Positions 20,236 to 55,390 of a stretch of 58,196 bases of DNA are shown one piece after another. Location of the stretch: positions 1 through 58,196 of the IMG/VR virus record IMGVR_UViG_3300035698_024774; one strand, written 5' to 3'. The position numbers and the translations under genes were made by a program. Within the stretch, counting starts at the first letter, position 1. The number at the start of each line of letters is the position of its first letter. The notes under the pieces were generated by a model. It was not told where the DNA came from and made no database searches. It saw only the letters and a list, made by a program, of their open reading frames with translations. This DNA is from a virus.

Positions 20236-23202
20236 CTAGCATTTTGAATATCCACACGTTGTACACTTCCAACATCTCTCCGCATAAACAAGTGAGTTTT
20301 TTGTACATGATGGACATATTATTTGTTTCTTTTCTTCTTCTGTCTTTTCTTTTTTATAGTGCTCTTCTAATCTATTTGCTATCAAATCTATCACAGAACT
20401 ATATTTTTTACCAGCATGAAATAATGCACCATTACCCTCTATTCCCTTAAGGGCCTTTACTATTACACTGACATCAACCTTATGTTTTAGAGCATTAGAG
20501 ATCAACTTCCCTATAGCTGTATAGTGCATCTTAACATCGGCATCAGCATCTATATTAACAAAAACTTCAATAGGCTCATCATCCTCTAAACTATTCTTAT
20601 TAATTGTTAGATAAACCTTACCACTATTGGTTTGAATTTTCTCAGTTGTACCATTCGTAATATTAGATCTATACCTTAGCTTGGTTTCTTTTTTATCTTC
20701 CTTTTTTGTTGTAGATAAAACCTGATGAGGTCGGCTACCATCACGATAAACGGTTATACCCTTACACCCTAATTCATAAGCTAAAATATAAGCCTCTCTA
20801 ATACTTTTTTGAGTAGCATTCTTTGGTAGATTAATGGTCTTACTTACACCGCTATCGACAAATTTTTGAAAAGACGCTTGCATTCTAACGTGGTCTAATG
20901 GGTCTATATCCATTGCTGTTACAAAAACATTTTTAACTTCCTCTGGTATCCCCTTAATTTTTTGGATACTCCCTGTCTCACAAATTTTATCCCTTAATTC
21001 AGAATCAAAACGTAACCCATCCTTTTCTAACTTTATTATATTTTCATTTGATTCAAAATATTCACTGAAAACAGGCATCTTTGTATCGTCCATACATGTT
21101 CTCATATACCCTATAGCAAACAGTGGCTCACATCCAGATGATACATTAGCTATAATAGAAAGAGTTCCGGTAGGAGCTATTGTAGTTACACATGAATTTC
21201 TTCTTGTCTTATCCGATCCACAATACCCCCTTTGTTTTCCAAGAGCCTTACTAAATTTTAAAGATTTAACACTAATGAATTCCATAATACGTTCAGCAAC
21301 TTCAAATGATTCCTCGGAACCATACCTAATACCCATTTTAATAAGTATATCAGCAAAACCCATAACACCAATACCAATTCTACGTGAGTGTAGTGTTTGT
21401 TTTTGTATTTGAGGTAATGGGTATTTATTAACACTGATAACACTATCCATGAATCTGACTATAACCCTTAAGTCTTTTTCCAACTCTAACCAATTGATAT
21501 TAAGCTCTTCCGTTAGGTATTCATTCAAATTAATACTACATAAATTACATGAATCATTAGGTGGTAGAGGCTGCTCCCCGCATGGATTAGTAGACTCATA
21601 TAATATATTTTTATTCTTTTTATTAGCCGTATCTATAAAAAATATACCCGGCTCTCCGGTTTCGTAAGCATTTTTAACAATATTATCCATTACAGTTTTT
21701 GACGATAGTGTACCACACTTTTTACCATCACGAGGATCCACTAAATCATAATTCTCACTATCTTTAAGTGCTTTCATAAATTTATCAGTAATTGCCACAG
21801 AAATATTAAAGTTATTTAATTTAGTAAGATCTTGCTTACAATTAATAAACTCTAAAACATCTGGATGATCACAATTATGAACAAAAATATTTTCTACAGC
21901 AAAATTATGAAAATCAGGAACATGAGCATCATAAACATCTTCAAATCCAAATTTTTCAATTTTTCTTATTTTATGGTTACTATTAAATTGGTTCTTAAAA
22001 CCATCCCTATAATGTTTTTTGTAATCACTTCCCCCTAGCCCTTTATTCCAAACATCTTTTTTCTTTTTCCTTGCAGCTATTTTCATTTTTTCTTTCCATT
22101 GGTCTGCTTTTTCTTTACCATAAACATCCTCTAAGGTTTTACCTCTTCTTTCATTGGCAATCCTTTTTTGGTGTTTTTTAATAATACCACAATGTTTTTT
22201 AGCATGCTCAGAAAGAGTTAAAACTTGCAAATTATTAGGATTATTATTCAAACAATCACCATCAATATGATGGACAAATTCATCGTTTTTACCTCTTTTA
22301 CCATTATTTGTTAATGTTTTTAGCTTTCTTCTGATAATCATTTCACCGATAATAACAGATTCATCTCTATTATTTTCTTCAAAGGTGCTACCAATAGAAA
22401 TTCTACCATTTTGCATTACTTTATGCAATGCTTTGAGACTGCTTCCAATTCTTAAATCCTTAAGTTGTTTATAATTGTTATCGGAAGTTAAAAACAAATG
22501 ATCATCCGTAGAATATATAATATCATCATTATCTAAAGTAATCTTATATACCTCTTTATGGTCACTCTTAAAAAAATTAGCTTCTCTAATGGCAACTTCT
22601 TTGTTTTTAAAATCATAACAATATACATAAGCCTTTTTATTTTCTAATTCCTCAATGGGTATTTTACCATTAATAGTGTTAACTTTTGTTTTCCCACCTA
22701 AACATCGTAAAATTCCCATGTTCGCTCCTCTACGTGTACCACCTTGCTTTACCTGTTCGGTTGCTTCATTAATTACTTTCATAAAAGAAATCGGGCCAGA
22801 TGCTACACCATATGTACTGCCAACAACAGAATCACTTGGTCTTAATCTAGAGAATGAAAATCCAGTTCCACCGCCTGATTGGTGTACTAATGCAGCGTTC
22901 TTAACTGCATCAAAAATAGACTCCATAGAATCTTCTATAGGTAAAACAAAACATCCACTTAATTGTCCAATTTTACGTCCTGCGTTCATTAGTGTAGGGC
23001 TATTGGGTAAGAACTTAAGATCATATAATAATTCATAATATTTCTTTGCCCATTTTTTCCTACACTTTACTGGCTCATCTTTTGCAATGGCATTGGAAAC
23101 TCTCTGACATAAGCCATCCCAATCTTCTATACACTTGCCGTCTTTATCTTTTATAAAATATCTTCTTTTTAAAACTTCTATTGCATTATCACTGAGCGTC
23201 AT
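20236..23202 (-). CDS. nrdJ: Class II (B12-dependent) ribonucleotide reductase with intein
   Basis: The precursor is 988 residues; removing the intein (167-443) leaves about 711. Extein motifs include FLPNSPTLMNAG, LSGCFVLP (redox Cys84), HQSGGGTGFSFSRLRP, NPCGEQPLPPNDSCNLCSIN (active-site Asn, Cys and Glu) and a C-terminal zinc-ribbon, CPSCTKNSLVY then CWKCTTCGYSKC. These are typical of adenosylcobalamin-dependent NrdJ enzymes, which reduce ribonucleotides for DNA synthesis without oxygen. The host must supply or import B12. A remnant of another nucleotide gene overlaps its start. Confidence 0.9.
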   Translation of the reverse strand: MTLSDNAIEVLKRRYFIKDKDGKCIEDWDGLCQRVSNAIAKDEPVKCRKKWAKKYYELLYDLKFLPNSPTLMNAGRKIGQLSGCFVLPIEDSMESIFDAVKNAALVHQSGGGTGFSFSRLRPSDSVVGSTYGVASGPISFMKVINEATEQVKQGGTRRGANMGILRCLGGKTKVNTINGKIPIEELENKKAYVYCYDFKNKEVAIREANFFKSDHKEVYKITLDNDDIIYSTDDHLFLTSDNNYKQLKDLRIGSSLKALHKVMQNGRISIGSTFEENNRDESVIIGEMIIRRKLKTLTNNGKRGKNDEFVHHIDGDCLNNNPNNLQVLTLSEHAKKHCGIIKKHQKRIANERRGKTLEDVYGKEKADQWKEKMKIAARKKKKDVWNKGLGGSDYKKHYRDGFKNQFNSNHKIRKIEKFGFEDVYDAHVPDFHNFAVENIFVHNCDHPDVLEFINCKQDLTKLNNFNISVAITDKFMKALKDSENYDLVDPRDGKKCGTLSSKTVMDNIVKNAYETGEPGIFFIDTANKKNKNILYESTNPCGEQPLPPNDSCNLCSINLNEYLTEELNINWLELEKDLRVIVRFMDSVISVNKYPLPQIQKQTLHSRRIGIGVMGFADILIKMGIRYGSEESFEVAERIMEFISVKSLKFSKALGKQRGYCGSDKTRRNSCVTTIAPTGTLSIIANVSSGCEPLFAIGYMRTCMDDTKMPVFSEYFESNENIIKLEKDGLRFDSELRDKICETGSIQKIKGIPEEVKNVFVTAMDIDPLDHVRMQASFQKFVDSGVSKTINLPKNATQKSIREAYILAYELGCKGITVYRDGSRPHQVLSTTKKEDKKETKLRYRSNITNGTTEKIQTNSGKVYLTINKNSLEDDEPIEVFVNIDADADVKMHYTAIGKLISNALKHKVDVSVIVKALKGIEGNGALFHAGKKYSSVIDLIANRLEEHYKKEKTEEEKKQIICPSCTKNSLVYAERCWKCTTCGYSKC
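21874..22704 (-). mobile_element. HNH-containing intein in nrdJ (277 aa)
   Basis: The insert runs from Cys167 (CLGGKTKV) to Asn443 (NIFVHN) with Cys444 as the +1 residue; it interrupts GANMGILR/CDHPDVLEF. Splicing blocks are visible: YSTDDHLFLTS (TxxH-type block B), FEDVYDAHVPDFHNFAVENIFVHN (blocks F and G, penultimate His). The endonuclease is of HNH type (FVHHIDGDCLNNNPNNLQVL) rather than LAGLIDADG. All catalytic splice residues are present, so it should be active. Confidence 0.88.
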
Positions 23203-37865: not shown

Positions 37866-39698
37866 TTACCTCTTAATTTGCTGATATATATCATCGAAAA
37901 CTTCTTGATGTTCCTGTAGAAACACAATAGCTTTCTCTCTTCCTTGTCCGATCCTATCGTTTTTATACGCATACCAAGAACCACTTCTATCTATAATGCT
38001 TCTCTTTTCGGCAATATCTAAAAGTTCACCAATTCTATCGAACCCTTTTCCATATCTAATATCGAGTTCTACTTCTCTCATTGGAGGAGCTACTCTATTT
38101 TTAACAACCCTTATTCTTGTCTTATGACCATAGGCTTCTTTTGTACTTACTATTCTATTTGTGGCTATTTTTCTAATATCTAACCTGATTGAAGAATAAT
38201 ATAACAAAGCTCTCCCCCCGGTAGTGGTTTCAGGATTGCCATACTGAACAATCTTCATTCTTATTTGATTAATAAAAACCAAAATTACATTTGTGTCGCA
38301 GACTAGTCCACTAATCATTCGACAAACTTGAGACATTAATCTTGCATGTTTACCCATATGAGCATCACCAATCTCACCATCTAGTTCTGCTTGTGGCACT
38401 AAAGCAGCAACGGAATCAACAACAATAATATCAAACACTTTATCTTTCATGATCTTAATCATAACACTTAATGCTTCTTCTCCACATGATGGATGAGCTA
38501 CTATTAGTTTTTTGGTATCGACACCTATATTTTTAGCGTATCTAATATCTAATGCATGTTCTGCGTCTATATAGAGAGCCTCGCCTTTAGCTTTTTGTAC
38601 TTCGGCAATTAACTCAAGAGCCATTGTAGTCTTGCCAGAATTATGGACAACAAACCCATCCGCAACAAAATTGTTATACGGAAACTCGCACTTGATATCG
38701 AAAGTATCCATAAGTCCAACATGTGTTATAGACTTAATTTTAACTAAAACAGCAACAAAACTCAAATTTCGTATTCTGTCTTTGGCATGGATCTTTCCAT
38801 GTTCCGATGGGTTTACCAACATTAGATTTGATATTTCATTATTATTAAAATTCTCATCTATATGGTGAACATGAATATTATCCGGCAATGTTATTAGGTC
38901 AAGTATGTTTCCAGCATTCAATTTACTTACATAATCTGTCGGCTCCATGCCGTTCATATGTGCTTCGTAAATCATTCTTGAATACTGAAGTCTATAGTAA
39001 AGATATTTTCCATCTACAATCTTTGTTGTGGCAAATGGATGGTGCTTAACCATAACCTCAGATCTATTTCCAGATTGCTTTTTACCTATGACTCTAGTGT
39101 TATTATGTACAAATACTTCTGTACCTACTTTAATATCCTTTAGAGGTATATAACCAGATACAGTTCTATATTTATGGTCTGCTGTAGTTTCTATAACTTG
39201 ACCGTCTTCTGTTTCAACTCTGAAACATTGTTTAAACCCAGTGTGAACTACATCCAATATCATATTTCTGACAATTCTATCATCGCCACATACAGACTTC
39301 ACATAAAACACAGAGTCATTATTCTGTAGATGAACACCCTGTTTTGGTTCACCTAAAGACACACTATTAAATCTTTCATACAGTCTATGAATTGTACCAC
39401 CTTTGTGGTTCCGTCTGAGTTTACCATCCCTAGTCCACACCTCGAATGGAATAAATGTTGATCCTGCCAAGCAGCCTTCTGGCCCAAAAATTTCTGTAAT
39501 GCGACCCTTTGGTATACCACCTACGCCAAGTGCCTCATCAAGGCCAATAGAGCCAGTGGAGACTACCTCTACGTTTTCTGAGATATCCCCTGCTTTCATG
39601 ATTGAATCTTTTCCGAAAAGTTTTTGAATATTTTGAAGGGTAGTTTCAACGGTAGCTTTTTCTACTACTTTTTTTACTACTTTTTTCTCTTTTTTCAT
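37866..39698 (-). CDS. recA: RecA recombinase with intein
   Basis: The precursor is 610 residues; without the intein (76-353) it is 332, near bacterial RecA length. Motifs: STGSIGLDEALGVGGIPKGRITEIFGPEG then SGKTTMALEL (a Walker A split by the intein), ALYIDAEHALD, DIIVVDSVAALVP, the L2 region with TTTGGRALLYY, and a shortened C-terminus. It resembles bacterial RecA more than T4 UvsX. It lies just downstream of the tmRNA-like RNA. Splicing is required for ATP binding. Confidence 0.93.
   Translation of the reverse strand: MKKEKKVVKKVVEKATVETTLQNIQKLFGKDSIMKAGDISENVEVVSTGSIGLDEALGVGGIPKGRITEIFGPEGCLAGSTFIPFEVWTRDGKLRRNHKGGTIHRLYERFNSVSLGEPKQGVHLQNNDSVFYVKSVCGDDRIVRNMILDVVHTGFKQCFRVETEDGQVIETTADHKYRTVSGYIPLKDIKVGTEVFVHNNTRVIGKKQSGNRSEVMVKHHPFATTKIVDGKYLYYRLQYSRMIYEAHMNGMEPTDYVSKLNAGNILDLITLPDNIHVHHIDENFNNNEISNLMLVNPSEHGKIHAKDRIRNLSFVAVLVKIKSITHVGLMDTFDIKCEFPYNNFVADGFVVHNSGKTTMALELIAEVQKAKGEALYIDAEHALDIRYAKNIGVDTKKLIVAHPSCGEEALSVMIKIMKDKVFDIIVVDSVAALVPQAELDGEIGDAHMGKHARLMSQVCRMISGLVCDTNVILVFINQIRMKIVQYGNPETTTGGRALLYYSSIRLDIRKIATNRIVSTKEAYGHKTRIRVVKNRVAPPMREVELDIRYGKGFDRIGELLDIAEKRSIIDRSGSWYAYKNDRIGQGREKAIVFLQEHQEVFDDIYQQIKR
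38640..39473 (-). mobile_element. HNH-containing intein in the RecA P-loop (278 aa)
   Basis: The intein runs from Cys76 (CLAGSTFI) to Asn353 (DGFVVHN) with Ser354 as +1, splitting GPEG/SGKTT. Block B (ETTADHKYRTV), block F/G (DTFDIKCEFPYNNFVADGFVVHN, penultimate His) are intact. The endonuclease part is HNH-type (IHVHHIDENFNNNEISNLML). Insertion in the P-loop means an unspliced precursor is inactive, which favours intein persistence. Confidence 0.88.
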
Positions 39699-39716
39699 TG
39701 ACTACTTTCTTTAAAT

Positions 39717-39823
39717 GGAGCTGCCCGGAATCGAACCGGGGTGTAGAGTTAGACCAAGATCTTAAGGCCCCACATCGGGGAAACCCTCCCTCAGTCTAAC
39801 TCCATCGAAGCCCGATCAGCCCC
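39717..39823 (-). ncRNA. Minimal tmRNA-like RNA (tRNA-like domain of ssrA, tag region almost absent)
   Basis: On the minus strand a 107-nt unit has a 7-bp acceptor stem, GGGGCTG with CAGCTCC, including the G3-U70-type wobble that marks alanine tRNA and tmRNA, followed by discriminator A. The 5' part GGGGCTGATCGGGCTTCGA matches the canonical tmRNA start. A perfect 5-bp T stem (CCCGG/CCGGG) with loop TTCGATT and a perfect 9-bp helix GAGTTAGAC/GTCTAACTC (tmRNA helix 2) are present. Only 39 nt lie inside helix 2, against about 250 in normal tmRNA. No CCA is encoded. It starts 4 bp after the upstream stop. Confidence 0.8.
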
Positions 39824-39826
39824 AAA

Positions 39827-40321
39827 TTATGGAGTGAAATTTATGAATAGATGTAATGTAGAATAATTTATACCCTCAACCTCTACAACATTAAACGATG
39901 GAGTAATAGTAATTTTTTCATATCCATCTTGAGCATAGAGTGGACACCACTCAAATTCAAAACCATACAATCCTTCTACTTGTTCTGCACCAAAATCATA
40001 ATTACCACCAACAACAAATCCACAGTCAAGATTTTTAATAAGAGGGAACTTCAAGACAGAAGTTGCGCCAACTTTAACTTTTGCACCAAATGCATCTACT
40101 CTGGCGAGTATTGCTCTTGCCCAAAGATTTTTTGCTGAATCAATTCTAATAAAAGAATTAATTCCGTAGTATCCACCAGTATTATTAAAGAAACTGGTAA
40201 AACCAACCCCACCATTCATCCCATAGGATATTGGTTTTTCTGCAGCATTAGCATTAACACAGCAGACTACTAATAGGACTACGCAAATAATTCCCATAAT
40301 AGTAATGACAGGTCTTTTCAT
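39827..40321 (-). CDS. Secreted beta-barrel-like outer membrane protein
   Basis: The 164-residue product has a signal peptide (basic start, hydrophobic stretch about 7-22, cleavage near NANAAE). The mature part has alternating hydrophobic residues, many Gly and aromatics, and ends in LHLFINFTP with a C-terminal aromatic-rich strand. This resembles small OmpA/OmpW-type barrels, though it is short. It is the first gene after the leftward promoter, suggesting expression early or in lysogen-like states as a moron. Function unknown. Confidence 0.55.
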   Translation of the reverse strand: MKRPVITIMGIICVVLLVVCCVNANAAEKPISYGMNGGVGFTSFFNNTGGYYGINSFIRIDSAKNLWARAILARVDAFGAKVKVGATSVLKFPLIKNLDCGFVVGGNYDFGAEQVEGLYGFEFEWCPLYAQDGYEKITITPSFNVVEVEGINYSTLHLFINFTP

Positions 40322-47034: not shown

Positions 47035-47364
47035 ATGACTATAGATGATCTTCAATATGAACAGTGGGTATGGACAGGGAAAAATTTCCCCGGTCAACTT
47101 CCACATCAACCACTATTAGGAGTTGTCGAAGAGGTTGGTGAGTTGTGCCATGCTATACTTAAGAGCGAACAAAATATAAGGGGAAGTAAGCAGCAACATA
47201 GGGATGAGGCAGAAGATGCTATTGGCGATATTATGATCTATCTTGCGGGTGTATGTAGTCATAATAGTTTTATTATGCAAGATTGTATCGATAAGGCGTG
47301 GGCTGTGGTAAAACAAAGAGATTGGGAAAAAAATAAGGATACAGGTAAAAATGAAAAATGTTAA
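47035..47364 (+). CDS. mazG: MazG-like nucleotide pyrophosphohydrolase
   Basis: The 109-residue product has GVVEEVGELCHAILK (E-E-x-x-E) and DEAEDAIGDIMIYLAGV (E-x2-D), the metal-binding motifs of the all-alpha NTP-pyrophosphatase family. It would hydrolyse (d)NTPs or alarmones such as ppGpp. Overlaps rtcB by 14 bp. Confidence 0.8.
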   Translation: MTIDDLQYEQWVWTGKNFPGQLPHQPLLGVVEEVGELCHAILKSEQNIRGSKQQHRDEAEDAIGDIMIYLAGVCSHNSFIMQDCIDKAWAVVKQRDWEKNKDTGKNEKC

Positions 47365-48529
47365 GCTATGGATCGATGAAGATAAAATAGAACAGTCAGC
47401 ATTAGTTAGAATAAAAGATACCGCAAGCCACCCTAGATTATTTAAGCATGTTGCTATTATGCCTGACGTACACTATGGTATTGGGTGCAATATTGGTTCT
47501 GTTATTCCAGTAAGGGATGCTTTTATTCCCTCTGCCGTTGGGTTAGATATCGGGTGCGGTATGTGTGCCGTTAAGACTAGTTTGAAAAAAAGTAAACTAG
47601 GAGAGGTAGACTTTATTGACCTGCACCATAACATTAAAAGAAGTATTCCAGTTGGTAGATATCACAGAGGTGAAAATCAAACCGCAGCGCTTAAATTAGA
47701 TGCTTCTATGGATACTTTACTTGAGGGGTATCAGAAACTATACCCTAATAAATCAATTAAGGCTCAATTAGGAACATTAGGCGGTGGGAATCACTTTATT
47801 GAGTTGCAAGTAGACGAAGACGATAATATTTGGATAATGATCCATAGTGGCAGTCGTAATATAGGTAAATTAATCGCTGAGAAATATATGGCGATAGCAA
47901 AGAAAGAATGTAAGGATGATGTTCCACCAGATATGGAGTATTTAGAATTAGATACTAGATGGGGTAGATCCTACTATTCAGAGATGTCATTTGCTTTAAT
48001 TTTTGCAAAGACAAGTAGAGATATTATGATGAAAGATATTAAAGATCAGTTGATTAGAAAATTCCCTGATATAACATTTGATGAGGTAATTAATATTCAT
48101 CATAATTACGCTGCAGAAGAGAACCACTTTGGTGAAGATGTAATTATTCACCGTAAGGGTGCAACCAGTGCAAGAAAAGGCGAGATAGGTATTATACCCG
48201 GTTCTATGGGTGCACCTTCTTATATAGTAGTTGGTAAAGGTAATCCTGATTCCTATACATCCTGCTCACATGGTGCAGGTAGGGCGATGTCACGTAATGC
48301 AGCTAAAGGTAAAAAGAATTGGAAAACTGGTGAGATAAAAACTGTGGGTAAGCTAAGTATGGATGATTTTGAAGTAGATATGTCTGGTGTTTATAGTCAA
48401 GATGTTAATTTAGATCATTTAGATGAAGCACCACAAGCTTATAAAAATATTAATGAGGTAATGGAATATCAAAAGGATTTAGTTGAAATTAAATATAAGT
48501 TAACTCCCATATTTAATATTAAGGGGTAA
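47351..48529 (+). CDS. rtcB: RtcB-type RNA ligase
   Basis: The 392-residue product carries all RtcB motifs: MPDVHYGIGCNIGSV, VGLDIGCGMCAV (metal Cys), GTLGGGNHFIEL, IHSGSRNIG, NIHHNYAAEE, RKGATSARKGEIGIIPGSMG and SYTSCSHGAGRAMSR, whose His becomes guanylylated. RtcB joins 2',3'-cyclic-phosphate or 3'-phosphate ends to 5'-OH ends using GTP, repairing cut tRNA. It sits close to a tRNA array and a PNK-like kinase. Confidence 0.95.
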   Translation: MKNVKLWIDEDKIEQSALVRIKDTASHPRLFKHVAIMPDVHYGIGCNIGSVIPVRDAFIPSAVGLDIGCGMCAVKTSLKKSKLGEVDFIDLHHNIKRSIPVGRYHRGENQTAALKLDASMDTLLEGYQKLYPNKSIKAQLGTLGGGNHFIELQVDEDDNIWIMIHSGSRNIGKLIAEKYMAIAKKECKDDVPPDMEYLELDTRWGRSYYSEMSFALIFAKTSRDIMMKDIKDQLIRKFPDITFDEVINIHHNYAAEENHFGEDVIIHRKGATSARKGEIGIIPGSMGAPSYIVVGKGNPDSYTSCSHGAGRAMSRNAAKGKKNWKTGEIKTVGKLSMDDFEVDMSGVYSQDVNLDHLDEAPQAYKNINEVMEYQKDLVEIKYKLTPIFNIKG

Positions 48530-53122: not shown

Positions 53123-54007
53123 ATGATTAAAAAACCTATGTTAGCTGTAGAGTGTCAGAAGGATCAGTTAGACTTTTCTAATAGCTATCTAGCCACCCCT
53201 AAGATTGATGGTATCAGGGCCATGATGGTTAATGGGGAACTAGTCAGTCGTAAATTCAAACCCATCCCTAATAATTATATTAGAGAGGTGTTAGAGGAGG
53301 TTCTTCCCGATGGTGCAGATGGCGAACTTGTATCGGGTGATTTTAGAGGAACGACAAGCGATATCATGTCTGAGGATGGTGAGCCTGACTTTAAGTTTAT
53401 GTGGTTCGATTATGTTCTCGATCCAGAAGAACCATACGCCGATAGAATGGAAAGACTAGAAAGAACTTATCGTGTAATGGGGAGCCATAGGAAAAGTGAT
53501 GTAGAGCACATTGAACCATTAATACCTATTCTTATTAAAGATAGGGAACACTTAGATAAGTATGAGGATAAATGTTTAGAAGCAGAGTATGAGGGCGTAA
53601 TCCTTAGAATTAGTAATAGCCCATACAAATTCGGTCGATCTACTATCAATCAGCAATATATGCTAAAAATTAAAAAGTTTTTAGATTCCGAAGCTATTAT
53701 CATAGATTTTAATGAACAGATGCACAATGCTAATGAGGGGAAGAAAGATAAACTAGGACACACAGAGCGATCATCTCATAAAGCTAATAAGGTTCCTATG
53801 AACACGTTAGGGGCGTTAGTGGTAAGGGAGTCATATACCGATGTAGAGTTTAATATAGGCACAGGGTTCTCAAGGGAAGAAAGACAGGATATTTGGGATA
53901 ATAAAGATAAGTGGATTGGGAAACAGGTAAAATATAGATATTTTCCAAAGGGTGTAAAAGATAAACCTAGACATCCATCTTATTTGGGATTAAGAGAGGA
54001 TATATAA
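53123..54007 (+). CDS. ATP-dependent DNA ligase
   Basis: The 294-residue product has the adenylation motif TPKIDGIRAM (Lys27), motif III (FMWFDYVL), motif IIIa, motif IV EGVILR, and motif V YMLKIKKF, followed by an OB-fold-like C-terminus (VRESYTDVEFNIGTGF, VKYRYFPKGVKD). It resembles small T7-type phage ligases that seal nicks in replication. A strong AAAGGAG precedes the ATG. Confidence 0.92.
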   Translation: MIKKPMLAVECQKDQLDFSNSYLATPKIDGIRAMMVNGELVSRKFKPIPNNYIREVLEEVLPDGADGELVSGDFRGTTSDIMSEDGEPDFKFMWFDYVLDPEEPYADRMERLERTYRVMGSHRKSDVEHIEPLIPILIKDREHLDKYEDKCLEAEYEGVILRISNSPYKFGRSTINQQYMLKIKKFLDSEAIIIDFNEQMHNANEGKKDKLGHTERSSHKANKVPMNTLGALVVRESYTDVEFNIGTGFSREERQDIWDNKDKWIGKQVKYRYFPKGVKDKPRHPSYLGLREDI

Positions 54008-54739: not shown

Positions 54740-55390
54740 ATGGATACATTAATTTTAACAGTAGGATTACCGAGGTCTGGTAAGAGCACATGGTGTAGAA
54801 CGCAAGTTGGTAAGTGTCCCGTAGTCAATCCAGATTCAATTAGATTTGCTTTGTATGGTACAGACTTTATCCCTGAGTCCGAGGAAGTAGTATGGACTAC
54901 GGCTCACTTAATGGTTAAGGCTCTATTTTTAGCTGGCCATAATATTGTTATCGTAGATTCCACTAATCTTACCGAATGGCAACGTGAAGATTGGGCAAAA
55001 AGGATATGTGCAAAGATAGAGTATAAAGTCTTTAATGCCGATATGGCAACGTGCATAGAAAGAGCTCGTAGTGGTGGTAGAGAAGATCTTATCCCTATTA
55101 TAGAAAGAATGAACGAAACATTAGATCCAGATGAGTTAGATGAGTTAGATGGGCTTACTCTATCTGTATCTACCGAAATTATTCTGGAAGATGGTATTAA
55201 TGAAGATAGGGTTGTAAAAATTATTTACAAGGATTTGCATAGTAATAAGACCATTAGATATATTGAACCAATAGAAATATACAAGAAACCAGATCTATTT
55301 GTTAGAGCGTTCTGTAGATTTAGAAATGAAGAGAGGGAGTTTTGTATTGATAGGATTATAGAAGCTTCACTTACTGATGTGAGGTTTTAA
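54740..55390 (+). CDS. Polynucleotide-kinase-like P-loop domain fused to a WYL domain
   Basis: The 216-residue product has an N-terminal AAA_33/PNK-type kinase: P-loop GLPRSGKST (9-17), NPDSIRF (Asp32), IVDSTNLTEWQRE (73-82) and a lid with ERARSGGRED. From about 155 to 208 it has a WYL-type module: RVVKIIYKD, TIRYIEPIEI and FVRAFCRFRNEEREFCIDRI (the characteristic A-x-C-x-x-R ... F-x-x-D-R-I). The kinase could phosphorylate 5'-OH RNA ends; WYL domains bind nucleic acid or nucleotide ligands and regulate. I do not know of this fusion from characterised proteins. Confidence 0.8.
   Translation: MDTLILTVGLPRSGKSTWCRTQVGKCPVVNPDSIRFALYGTDFIPESEEVVWTTAHLMVKALFLAGHNIVIVDSTNLTEWQREDWAKRICAKIEYKVFNADMATCIERARSGGREDLIPIIERMNETLDPDELDELDGLTLSVSTEIILEDGINEDRVVKIIYKDLHSNKTIRYIEPIEIYKKPDLFVRAFCRFRNEEREFCIDRIIEASLTDVRF

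Follow-up and report, generated by a model that had tools for sequence, protein, structure and literature searches.

The window analysed here, the whole 58,196-nucleotide (nt) stretch of the IMG/VR virus record IMGVR_UViG_3300035698_024774, encodes a transfer-messenger RNA (tmRNA) consisting of the tRNA-like domain (TLD) only. The gene lies on the minus strand at 39716-39823 and measures 108 nt up to the discriminator base. The interpretation favoured in this study, with a probability of about 0.5, is that the RNA, charged but without a tag, would compete with the trans-translation of its host during infection. The evidence comes from the architecture of the RNA, its compensatory changes in a related phage, a large class of similar RNAs in other phages and the alanine identity pair that these RNAs have in common.

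Architecture of the RNA and compensatory change in a relative

The full sequence of the RNA, read from the minus strand, is GGGGCTGATCGGGCTTCGATGGAGTTAGACTGAGGGAGGGTTTCCCCGATGTGGGGCCTTAAGATCTTGGTCTAACTCTACACCCCGGTTCGATTCCGGGCAGCTCCA. An earlier interpretation of the window made from its letters alone (the sequence-only reading) had placed a 107-nt RNA at 39717-39823; the position was correct and the inclusion of A73 adds one base. The tmRNA-type 5' end, the CAGCTCC 3' end with its G-U wobble and the T arm which it described were all present on inspection and in the alignment to the Rfam tmRNA family, RF00023. The TLD is complete, with a 7-base-pair (bp) acceptor stem carrying G3-U70, the discriminator base A73, a tmRNA-type D region (ATCGGGCTTCGAT) and a 5-bp T stem. 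CCA is not encoded, as is the case for most of the 12 tRNA genes found in the window by ARAGORN. There is no anticodon arm and a long helix 2 stands in its place. This helix had been given as 9 bp; it is present and proved longer, with 16 contiguous pairs including G-U, formed by RNA positions 20-35 with 65-80. Within helix 2 there are 29 nt, and the resume codon, tag frame, stop codon and pseudoknots of a full tmRNA are absent.

The RF00023 model aligned end to end with the RNA in a 301-nt search (40.5 bits, E 4.7e-15), and on the whole record the score was 49 bits with an E of 5.4e-20, which exceeds the cut-off of 47 bits; the sequence-only reading had proposed this search. The RNA was not listed by the default whole-window Rfam gathering run and was not called by ARAGORN, not even as a tRNA, which indicates that standard annotation overlooks it. 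BLAST of the RNA against annotated phages matched only T arms. The folding energy was -51.7 against -39.6 kcal/mol (z -3.8), and the RNA was stabler than 200/200 dinucleotide shuffles. The parts of the RNA are as follows; model R1 and the relative are described below.

39716..39823, minus strand: compact RNA gene (RF00023 49 bits, E 5.4e-20; model R1 58.5 bits, E 5.6e-11)
39817..39823, minus strand: acceptor stem 5' strand GGGGCTG, G3 at 39821; 7/7 paired with 39717-39723
39805..39816, minus strand: tmRNA-type D region ATCGGGCTTCGA, aligned to the RF00023 D region and to R1
39789..39804, minus strand: helix 2 5' strand, RNA 20-35; 16 contiguous pairs, with two-sided changes in the relative at 8/12 compared pairs
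39760..39788, minus strand: apical loop region with a CCCC-GATGT-GGGG hairpin; no pseudoknot in the fold and no frame conserved against the relative
39744..39759, minus strand: helix 2 3' strand, RNA 65-80, by pairing
39724..39740, minus strand: T arm CCCGG-TTCGATT-CCGGG, found by RF00023; RF04321 (positions 36-52) matches this arm by itself
39716..39723, minus strand: acceptor stem 3' strand CAGCTCC with U70 at 39719, plus A73; alanine identity pair G3-U70

Relatives of the window phage were sought by terminase similarity. The nearest, IMGVR_UViG_3300025117_000038 (65% identity), has such a compact RNA too, 99 nt long, which scored 58.3 bits with R1. It directly follows the stop codon of a 167-amino-acid (aa) secreted-type open reading frame (ORF), and the gene order is collinear further on; recA is not beside it. 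Comparison of helix 2 in the two RNAs revealed differences at 8 of the 12 pairs compared, and all of these (8/8) are altered on both strands with the pairing retained. These are the compensatory changes for which the sequence-only reading had suggested a search. G3-U70 is common to both RNAs; no relation is seen between their interior sequences or between their reading frames. The sequence-only reading had named in advance, as a sign of simple deletion, a relative whose tmRNA is intact and of full length; in the relative found here there is no longer tmRNA, and the compact form is the only one it has.

The class of compact RNAs and the alanine identity pair

The occurrence of the compact form in IMG/VR was analysed by pattern scans. 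A strict pattern (GGGGCTGAT...TTCGATGG...GGTTCGATTCC) gave no match, and a looser one gave genuine compact RNAs mixed with false matches from neighbouring tRNAs (GGGGATGATCTAGGTTCGAATCC...). Later scans demanded a pyrimidine after TCGA and an ANCTCCA end, with which most of the false matches were gone; two tRNA- or CDS-like matches still admitted by one scan (L072, L073) were excluded. Degenerate patterns recovered forms of 100-132 nt, and a pattern with a shorter interior gave at least 120 matches, forms of 73-80 nt. IMG/VR thus has more than 100 compact RNAs of 73-130 nt in unrelated phages. As GGGG, TCGAY, the T loop and CTCCA were prescribed by the patterns, conservation of those bases is uninformative; helix-2 pairing, the 5-68 pair and T-stem pairing were left free.

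RNAalifold on 47 compact RNAs found the acceptor stem, the T arm and the outer helix 2 unprompted. The stated structure had 256 cells with two-sided change, compared to 88 +/- 8 in shuffled controls; slid controls gave no more than 53, and helix-2 covariation was seen in 7/7 pairs. The covariance model R1, built from the same 47 RNAs with the window RNA excluded, gave 58.5 bits (E 5.6e-11) on the window RNA, compared to 26.7 for the best window tRNA, and 51-74 bits on the other long forms. Taken together, the window RNA, the relative and the more than 100 other loci show that genes for such RNAs are common in phages and conserved in structure, and that ARAGORN and default annotation overlook them.

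The surroundings of the compact RNAs were also examined. ARAGORN found no tRNA in the examined stretch of 74/101 loci, thus the compact RNA is not merely a passenger of tRNA arrays. Both flanking ORFs are co-directional with it in 46 loci. Twenty loci (among L084-L163, from about -1660 to +145 relative to the RNA) have it between terminase-like and portal-like genes, as assigned by sequence inspection, and the portal-like gene of those approximately 20 viral contigs starts about 120-145 nt after the start of the compact RNA. The RNA is present and unannotated in three sequenced Streptomyces phages with named hosts, LuckySocke (where it measures about 78 nt), Shaeky and BRock; a laboratory strain is listed as host for at least one of them. 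At one locus (L149:2970-3503) a GOLLD-like RNA (142.7 bits, slightly below the cut-off of 150) is followed on the same strand, 14 nt after its end, by a TLD-only RNA of 79 nt.

The G3-U70 wobble is the alanine identity pair recognised by alanyl-tRNA synthetase (AlaRS), and at 3-70 a G-C pair is more stable than G-U. A scan was therefore of interest in which G3 was fixed and position 70 was free. Among the matches listed, U70 was present in 88/88 distinct RNAs matching this pattern, many of whose loci came from an earlier scan in which U70 was fixed. The list obtained was nearly identical and in the same order, with no newcomer lacking U70 among the loci obtained. G3-U70 is also present in forms found by BLAST or R1 which have a different 4-69 pair (LuckySocke, BRock and the bacterial loci L224, L225 and L227). 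Since U70 is held in all 88 RNAs although G-C is stronger and position 70 was free, the wobble pair read by AlaRS appears to be maintained and alanylation to be under selection. This suggests that the charged form matters in nature.

No SmpB gene was found in 23 and 43 virus records, some of which are fragments. RF00023 at E <= 1e-15 gave one match per record in 45/45 records searched, with compact printed lengths. Seven bacterial bins have the compact form, and 6/7 also hold a tmRNA of 350-390 nt; bins may include phage contigs, hence the co-occurrence is per bin and not per cell. The compact RNA appears to be added to the host's own system, and the suggestion of the sequence-only reading that it could replace trans-translation is unlikely where this was checkable. 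R1 was also applied at E <= 1e-7 to 395 genomes from the phylum to which a Saprospiraceae bin belongs. Compact forms were found in 3 of them, indicating that at this threshold the form seldom occurs outside contigs derived from phages. At the loci L224, L225 and L227 (bacterial genomes G391 and G329; Bacteroidota bins) the TLD-only forms measure 75 nt, their acceptor stems are GGGC/GTCC and their D loop is altered; one genome has two copies.

Proposed function and alternative explanations

The neighbouring genes of the window RNA are given below.

39827..40321, minus strand: upstream co-directional ORF of 164 aa with a signal-peptide-like N-terminus; its stop codon is 3 nt before the RNA
37866..39698, minus strand: downstream recA, split by an intein with an HNH endonuclease domain (PF00154 E 1.1e-98, PF14890, PF13392)

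The site is thus between a surface protein and recA, as had been noticed from the letters alone. The RNA runs in the leftward structural-gene direction and recA begins 17 nt past its end. The promoter and terminator scan gave no such site near the RNA, so that the simplest assumption is that the RNA is transcribed with the operon and released by tRNA-processing enzymes; the absence is consistent with operon transcription and is no proof of it. Inteins with HNH endonuclease domains apparently interrupt both recA (37866-39698, minus strand) and the large subunit of ribonucleotide reductase (20236-23202, minus strand). The window also has genes for RtcB RNA ligase (47351-48529), a polynucleotide-kinase-like protein (54740-55390) and an ATP-dependent DNA ligase (53123-54007), which together with the 12 tRNA genes resemble an RNA-repair set.

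The course of events that we infer is the following. The RNA would be cut from the structural-gene operon transcript by host tRNA-processing enzymes and charged with alanine by host AlaRS via G3-U70 and A73. Host SmpB and EF-Tu would bind the charged RNA, which would enter stalled ribosomes instead of the full tmRNA of the host. As it has no resume codon or tag, at most one alanine would be added and no tagging would be directed, making the RNA a dominant-negative or tag-suppressing competitor of host trans-translation in infection. That the phage would benefit by protecting its own proteins from SsrA-directed proteolysis is a guess. Active entry into the ribosome is favoured over a passive sponge because G3-U70 is strictly retained. 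A DS6A-like TLD RNA, named after the mycobacteriophage compared below, reportedly inhibits tmRNA in Escherichia coli (PMC4131195, PMC11915505). Of the two alternatives in the sequence-only reading, the second is the one best supported here, namely a minimal RNA that works, can be charged with alanine and would either interfere with trans-translation or engage SmpB.

Some points weigh against the competitor interpretation. PMC4131195 describes a similar TLD which inhibited tmRNA in both chargeable and non-chargeable form, perhaps through SmpB titration, so inhibition by itself leaves the strong conservation of G3-U70 unexplained. The well-studied phage lambda imm-P22 requires trans-translation (PMC2862035), therefore inhibition would not be helpful to every phage. 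More distant terminase relatives of the window phage (41%, 27% and 26% identity; L248-L251) gave no compact RNA match, their contigs being possibly partial.

The main rival is productive tag-less rescue, in which the charged TLD and host SmpB would free stalled ribosomes and the truncated proteins would gain one alanine and no degradation tag. The conserved charging identity suits such a working alanine acceptor more than a passive decoy, and mitochondrial tmRNAs without tag frames persist alongside SmpB, a similar rescue having been proposed there (PMC11915505). However, the RNA has no stop codon for release-factor recruitment, and the sole reported experiment on a phage-like TLD-only RNA (PMC4131195) showed inhibition of tmRNA; productive rescue is on balance unlikely, though it deserves to be considered before the other alternatives.

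A decoy which is never charged and only titrates SmpB, or else AlaRS or EF-Tu, would be in accordance with the intact SmpB-binding part (D region and elbow) and with the inhibition of tmRNA by a non-chargeable TLD, perhaps by titrating SmpB, which has been reported (PMC4131195). It is rather improbable in view of the 88/88 RNAs with G3-U70 (among the matches listed), as the stronger G-C would serve a passive decoy. The RNA may also be thought of as punctuation, its tRNA-like fold directing RNase P and 3' enzymes to cut the operon transcript while charging is irrelevant. The co-directional neighbours in the 46 loci and the place between terminase-like and portal-like genes in the 20 loci would suit this role, but the acceptor-T stack suffices for processing, and U70 in 88/88 of the listed matches and the long covarying helix 2 would have no explanation; we regard punctuation as very unlikely.

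Phages use tmRNA genes as integration sites, and the RNA could in principle be a decaying fossil of a full tmRNA, as the sequence-only reading had considered, or an attachment-site copy of a host tmRNA. The phage Shandong1 does have a copy of the 3' end only near its integrase. In the window RNA, however, both ends of the TLD are intact, the helix-2 changes in the relative are fully compensatory and the relative too has the compact form alone, and dozens of independent conserved forms were found, with U70 retained as above; a fossil is contradicted by these results and this origin is scarcely credible. The attachment-site version was rejected for the window RNA, as its 5' half is complete and the tyrosine integrase family PF00589 had no match in the window record, other recombinase families being outside the search. 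Least probable of all is a mini-tmRNA encoding the 8-residue tag MWGLKILV, whose open frame exists as first described with its stop inside helix 2, since the frame has no counterpart in the relative, there is no upstream pseudoknot and class members of 73-80 nt are too small inside.

Extended to the whole class, the competitor interpretation would make alanylated tag-less TLD RNAs of 75-130 nt a tool widespread among many unrelated phages, which receives its alanine from host AlaRS, has host SmpB as its carrier and seizes stalled ribosomes during infection to prevent SsrA tagging, with DS6A as the first example of a general strategy. We put this forward tentatively, at slightly less than even odds. 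The conserved alanine identity pair argues for use of the RNA while charged, so that the question whether phages interfere with host ribosome rescue, and for what reason, becomes testable.

Comparison with known systems

One-piece bacterial tmRNA (ssrA, RF00023) shares with the window RNA the acceptor stem with G3-U70 and A73, the D region, the T arm and the position of helix 2. It differs in having a resume codon, tag, stop and pseudoknots and a length of about 350 nt, compared to 108 nt here. The tag-less mitochondrial tmRNAs of jakobids and oomycetes (RF02544) and the plastid tmRNAs of Mallomonadaceae have likewise lost the mRNA-like region. Those are organellar, and the mitochondrial ones are mostly permuted with a nuclear SmpB partner, whereas in the case of the window RNA the phage copy is likely additional to a host system of the normal type.

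Full-length and permuted phage tmRNAs, as in many mycobacteriophages and in Melnitz (PMC9004378), are likewise phage-borne relatives of ssrA. They keep the tag frame and are capable of full trans-translation, unlike the window RNA. Several such genes were observed in the course of the analysis. Gordonia phage GMA2 (L082) has an unannotated full-length tmRNA at 619-1030 (94.6 bits) and a Pistol ribozyme match at 1340-1396 (56.8 bits) among its tRNA genes. Permuted tmRNA matches of 73-130 bits, not annotated as tmRNA, were seen in the records of the isolate phages RpAliso (L080), S-CAM1 (L081), SM1 (L235), CcrBL9 (L236) and QDWS359 (L237). In Tunturiibacter phage Tunturi_4 (L239) a permuted tmRNA match at 423-770 (79 bits) adjoins a gene at 706-1184 annotated as an RF-1 domain release factor, whose translation has a GGAGGQ stretch like that of ArfB-type rescue factors.

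The closest known case is the TLD-only tmRNA of mycobacteriophage DS6A, which was reportedly described by Mao et al. 2009. DS6A was compared by its published description only; the likeness is that of a phage-encoded RNA with little beyond the TLD, and the window RNA differs by its long helix 2, its unrelated phage and its syntenic relative. DS6A is listed as 'TLD only' in PMC4131195 and cited in PMC11915505, a 2025 survey of RefSeq viruses which names it alone as a phage TLD-only tmRNA. Where 18,146 phage genomes were surveyed with ARAGORN, the tmRNAs described were one- and two-piece forms only (PMC9004378). DS6A is the single phage with a TLD-only tmRNA in the literature surveyed, and the window RNA belongs to its kind. 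New here are the breadth of occurrence, the covariation in helix 2, the conservation of the charging pair and the three isolates with named hosts in which the RNA is unannotated. If the proposal is true, the oddity of DS6A would become the first case of a general phage strategy.
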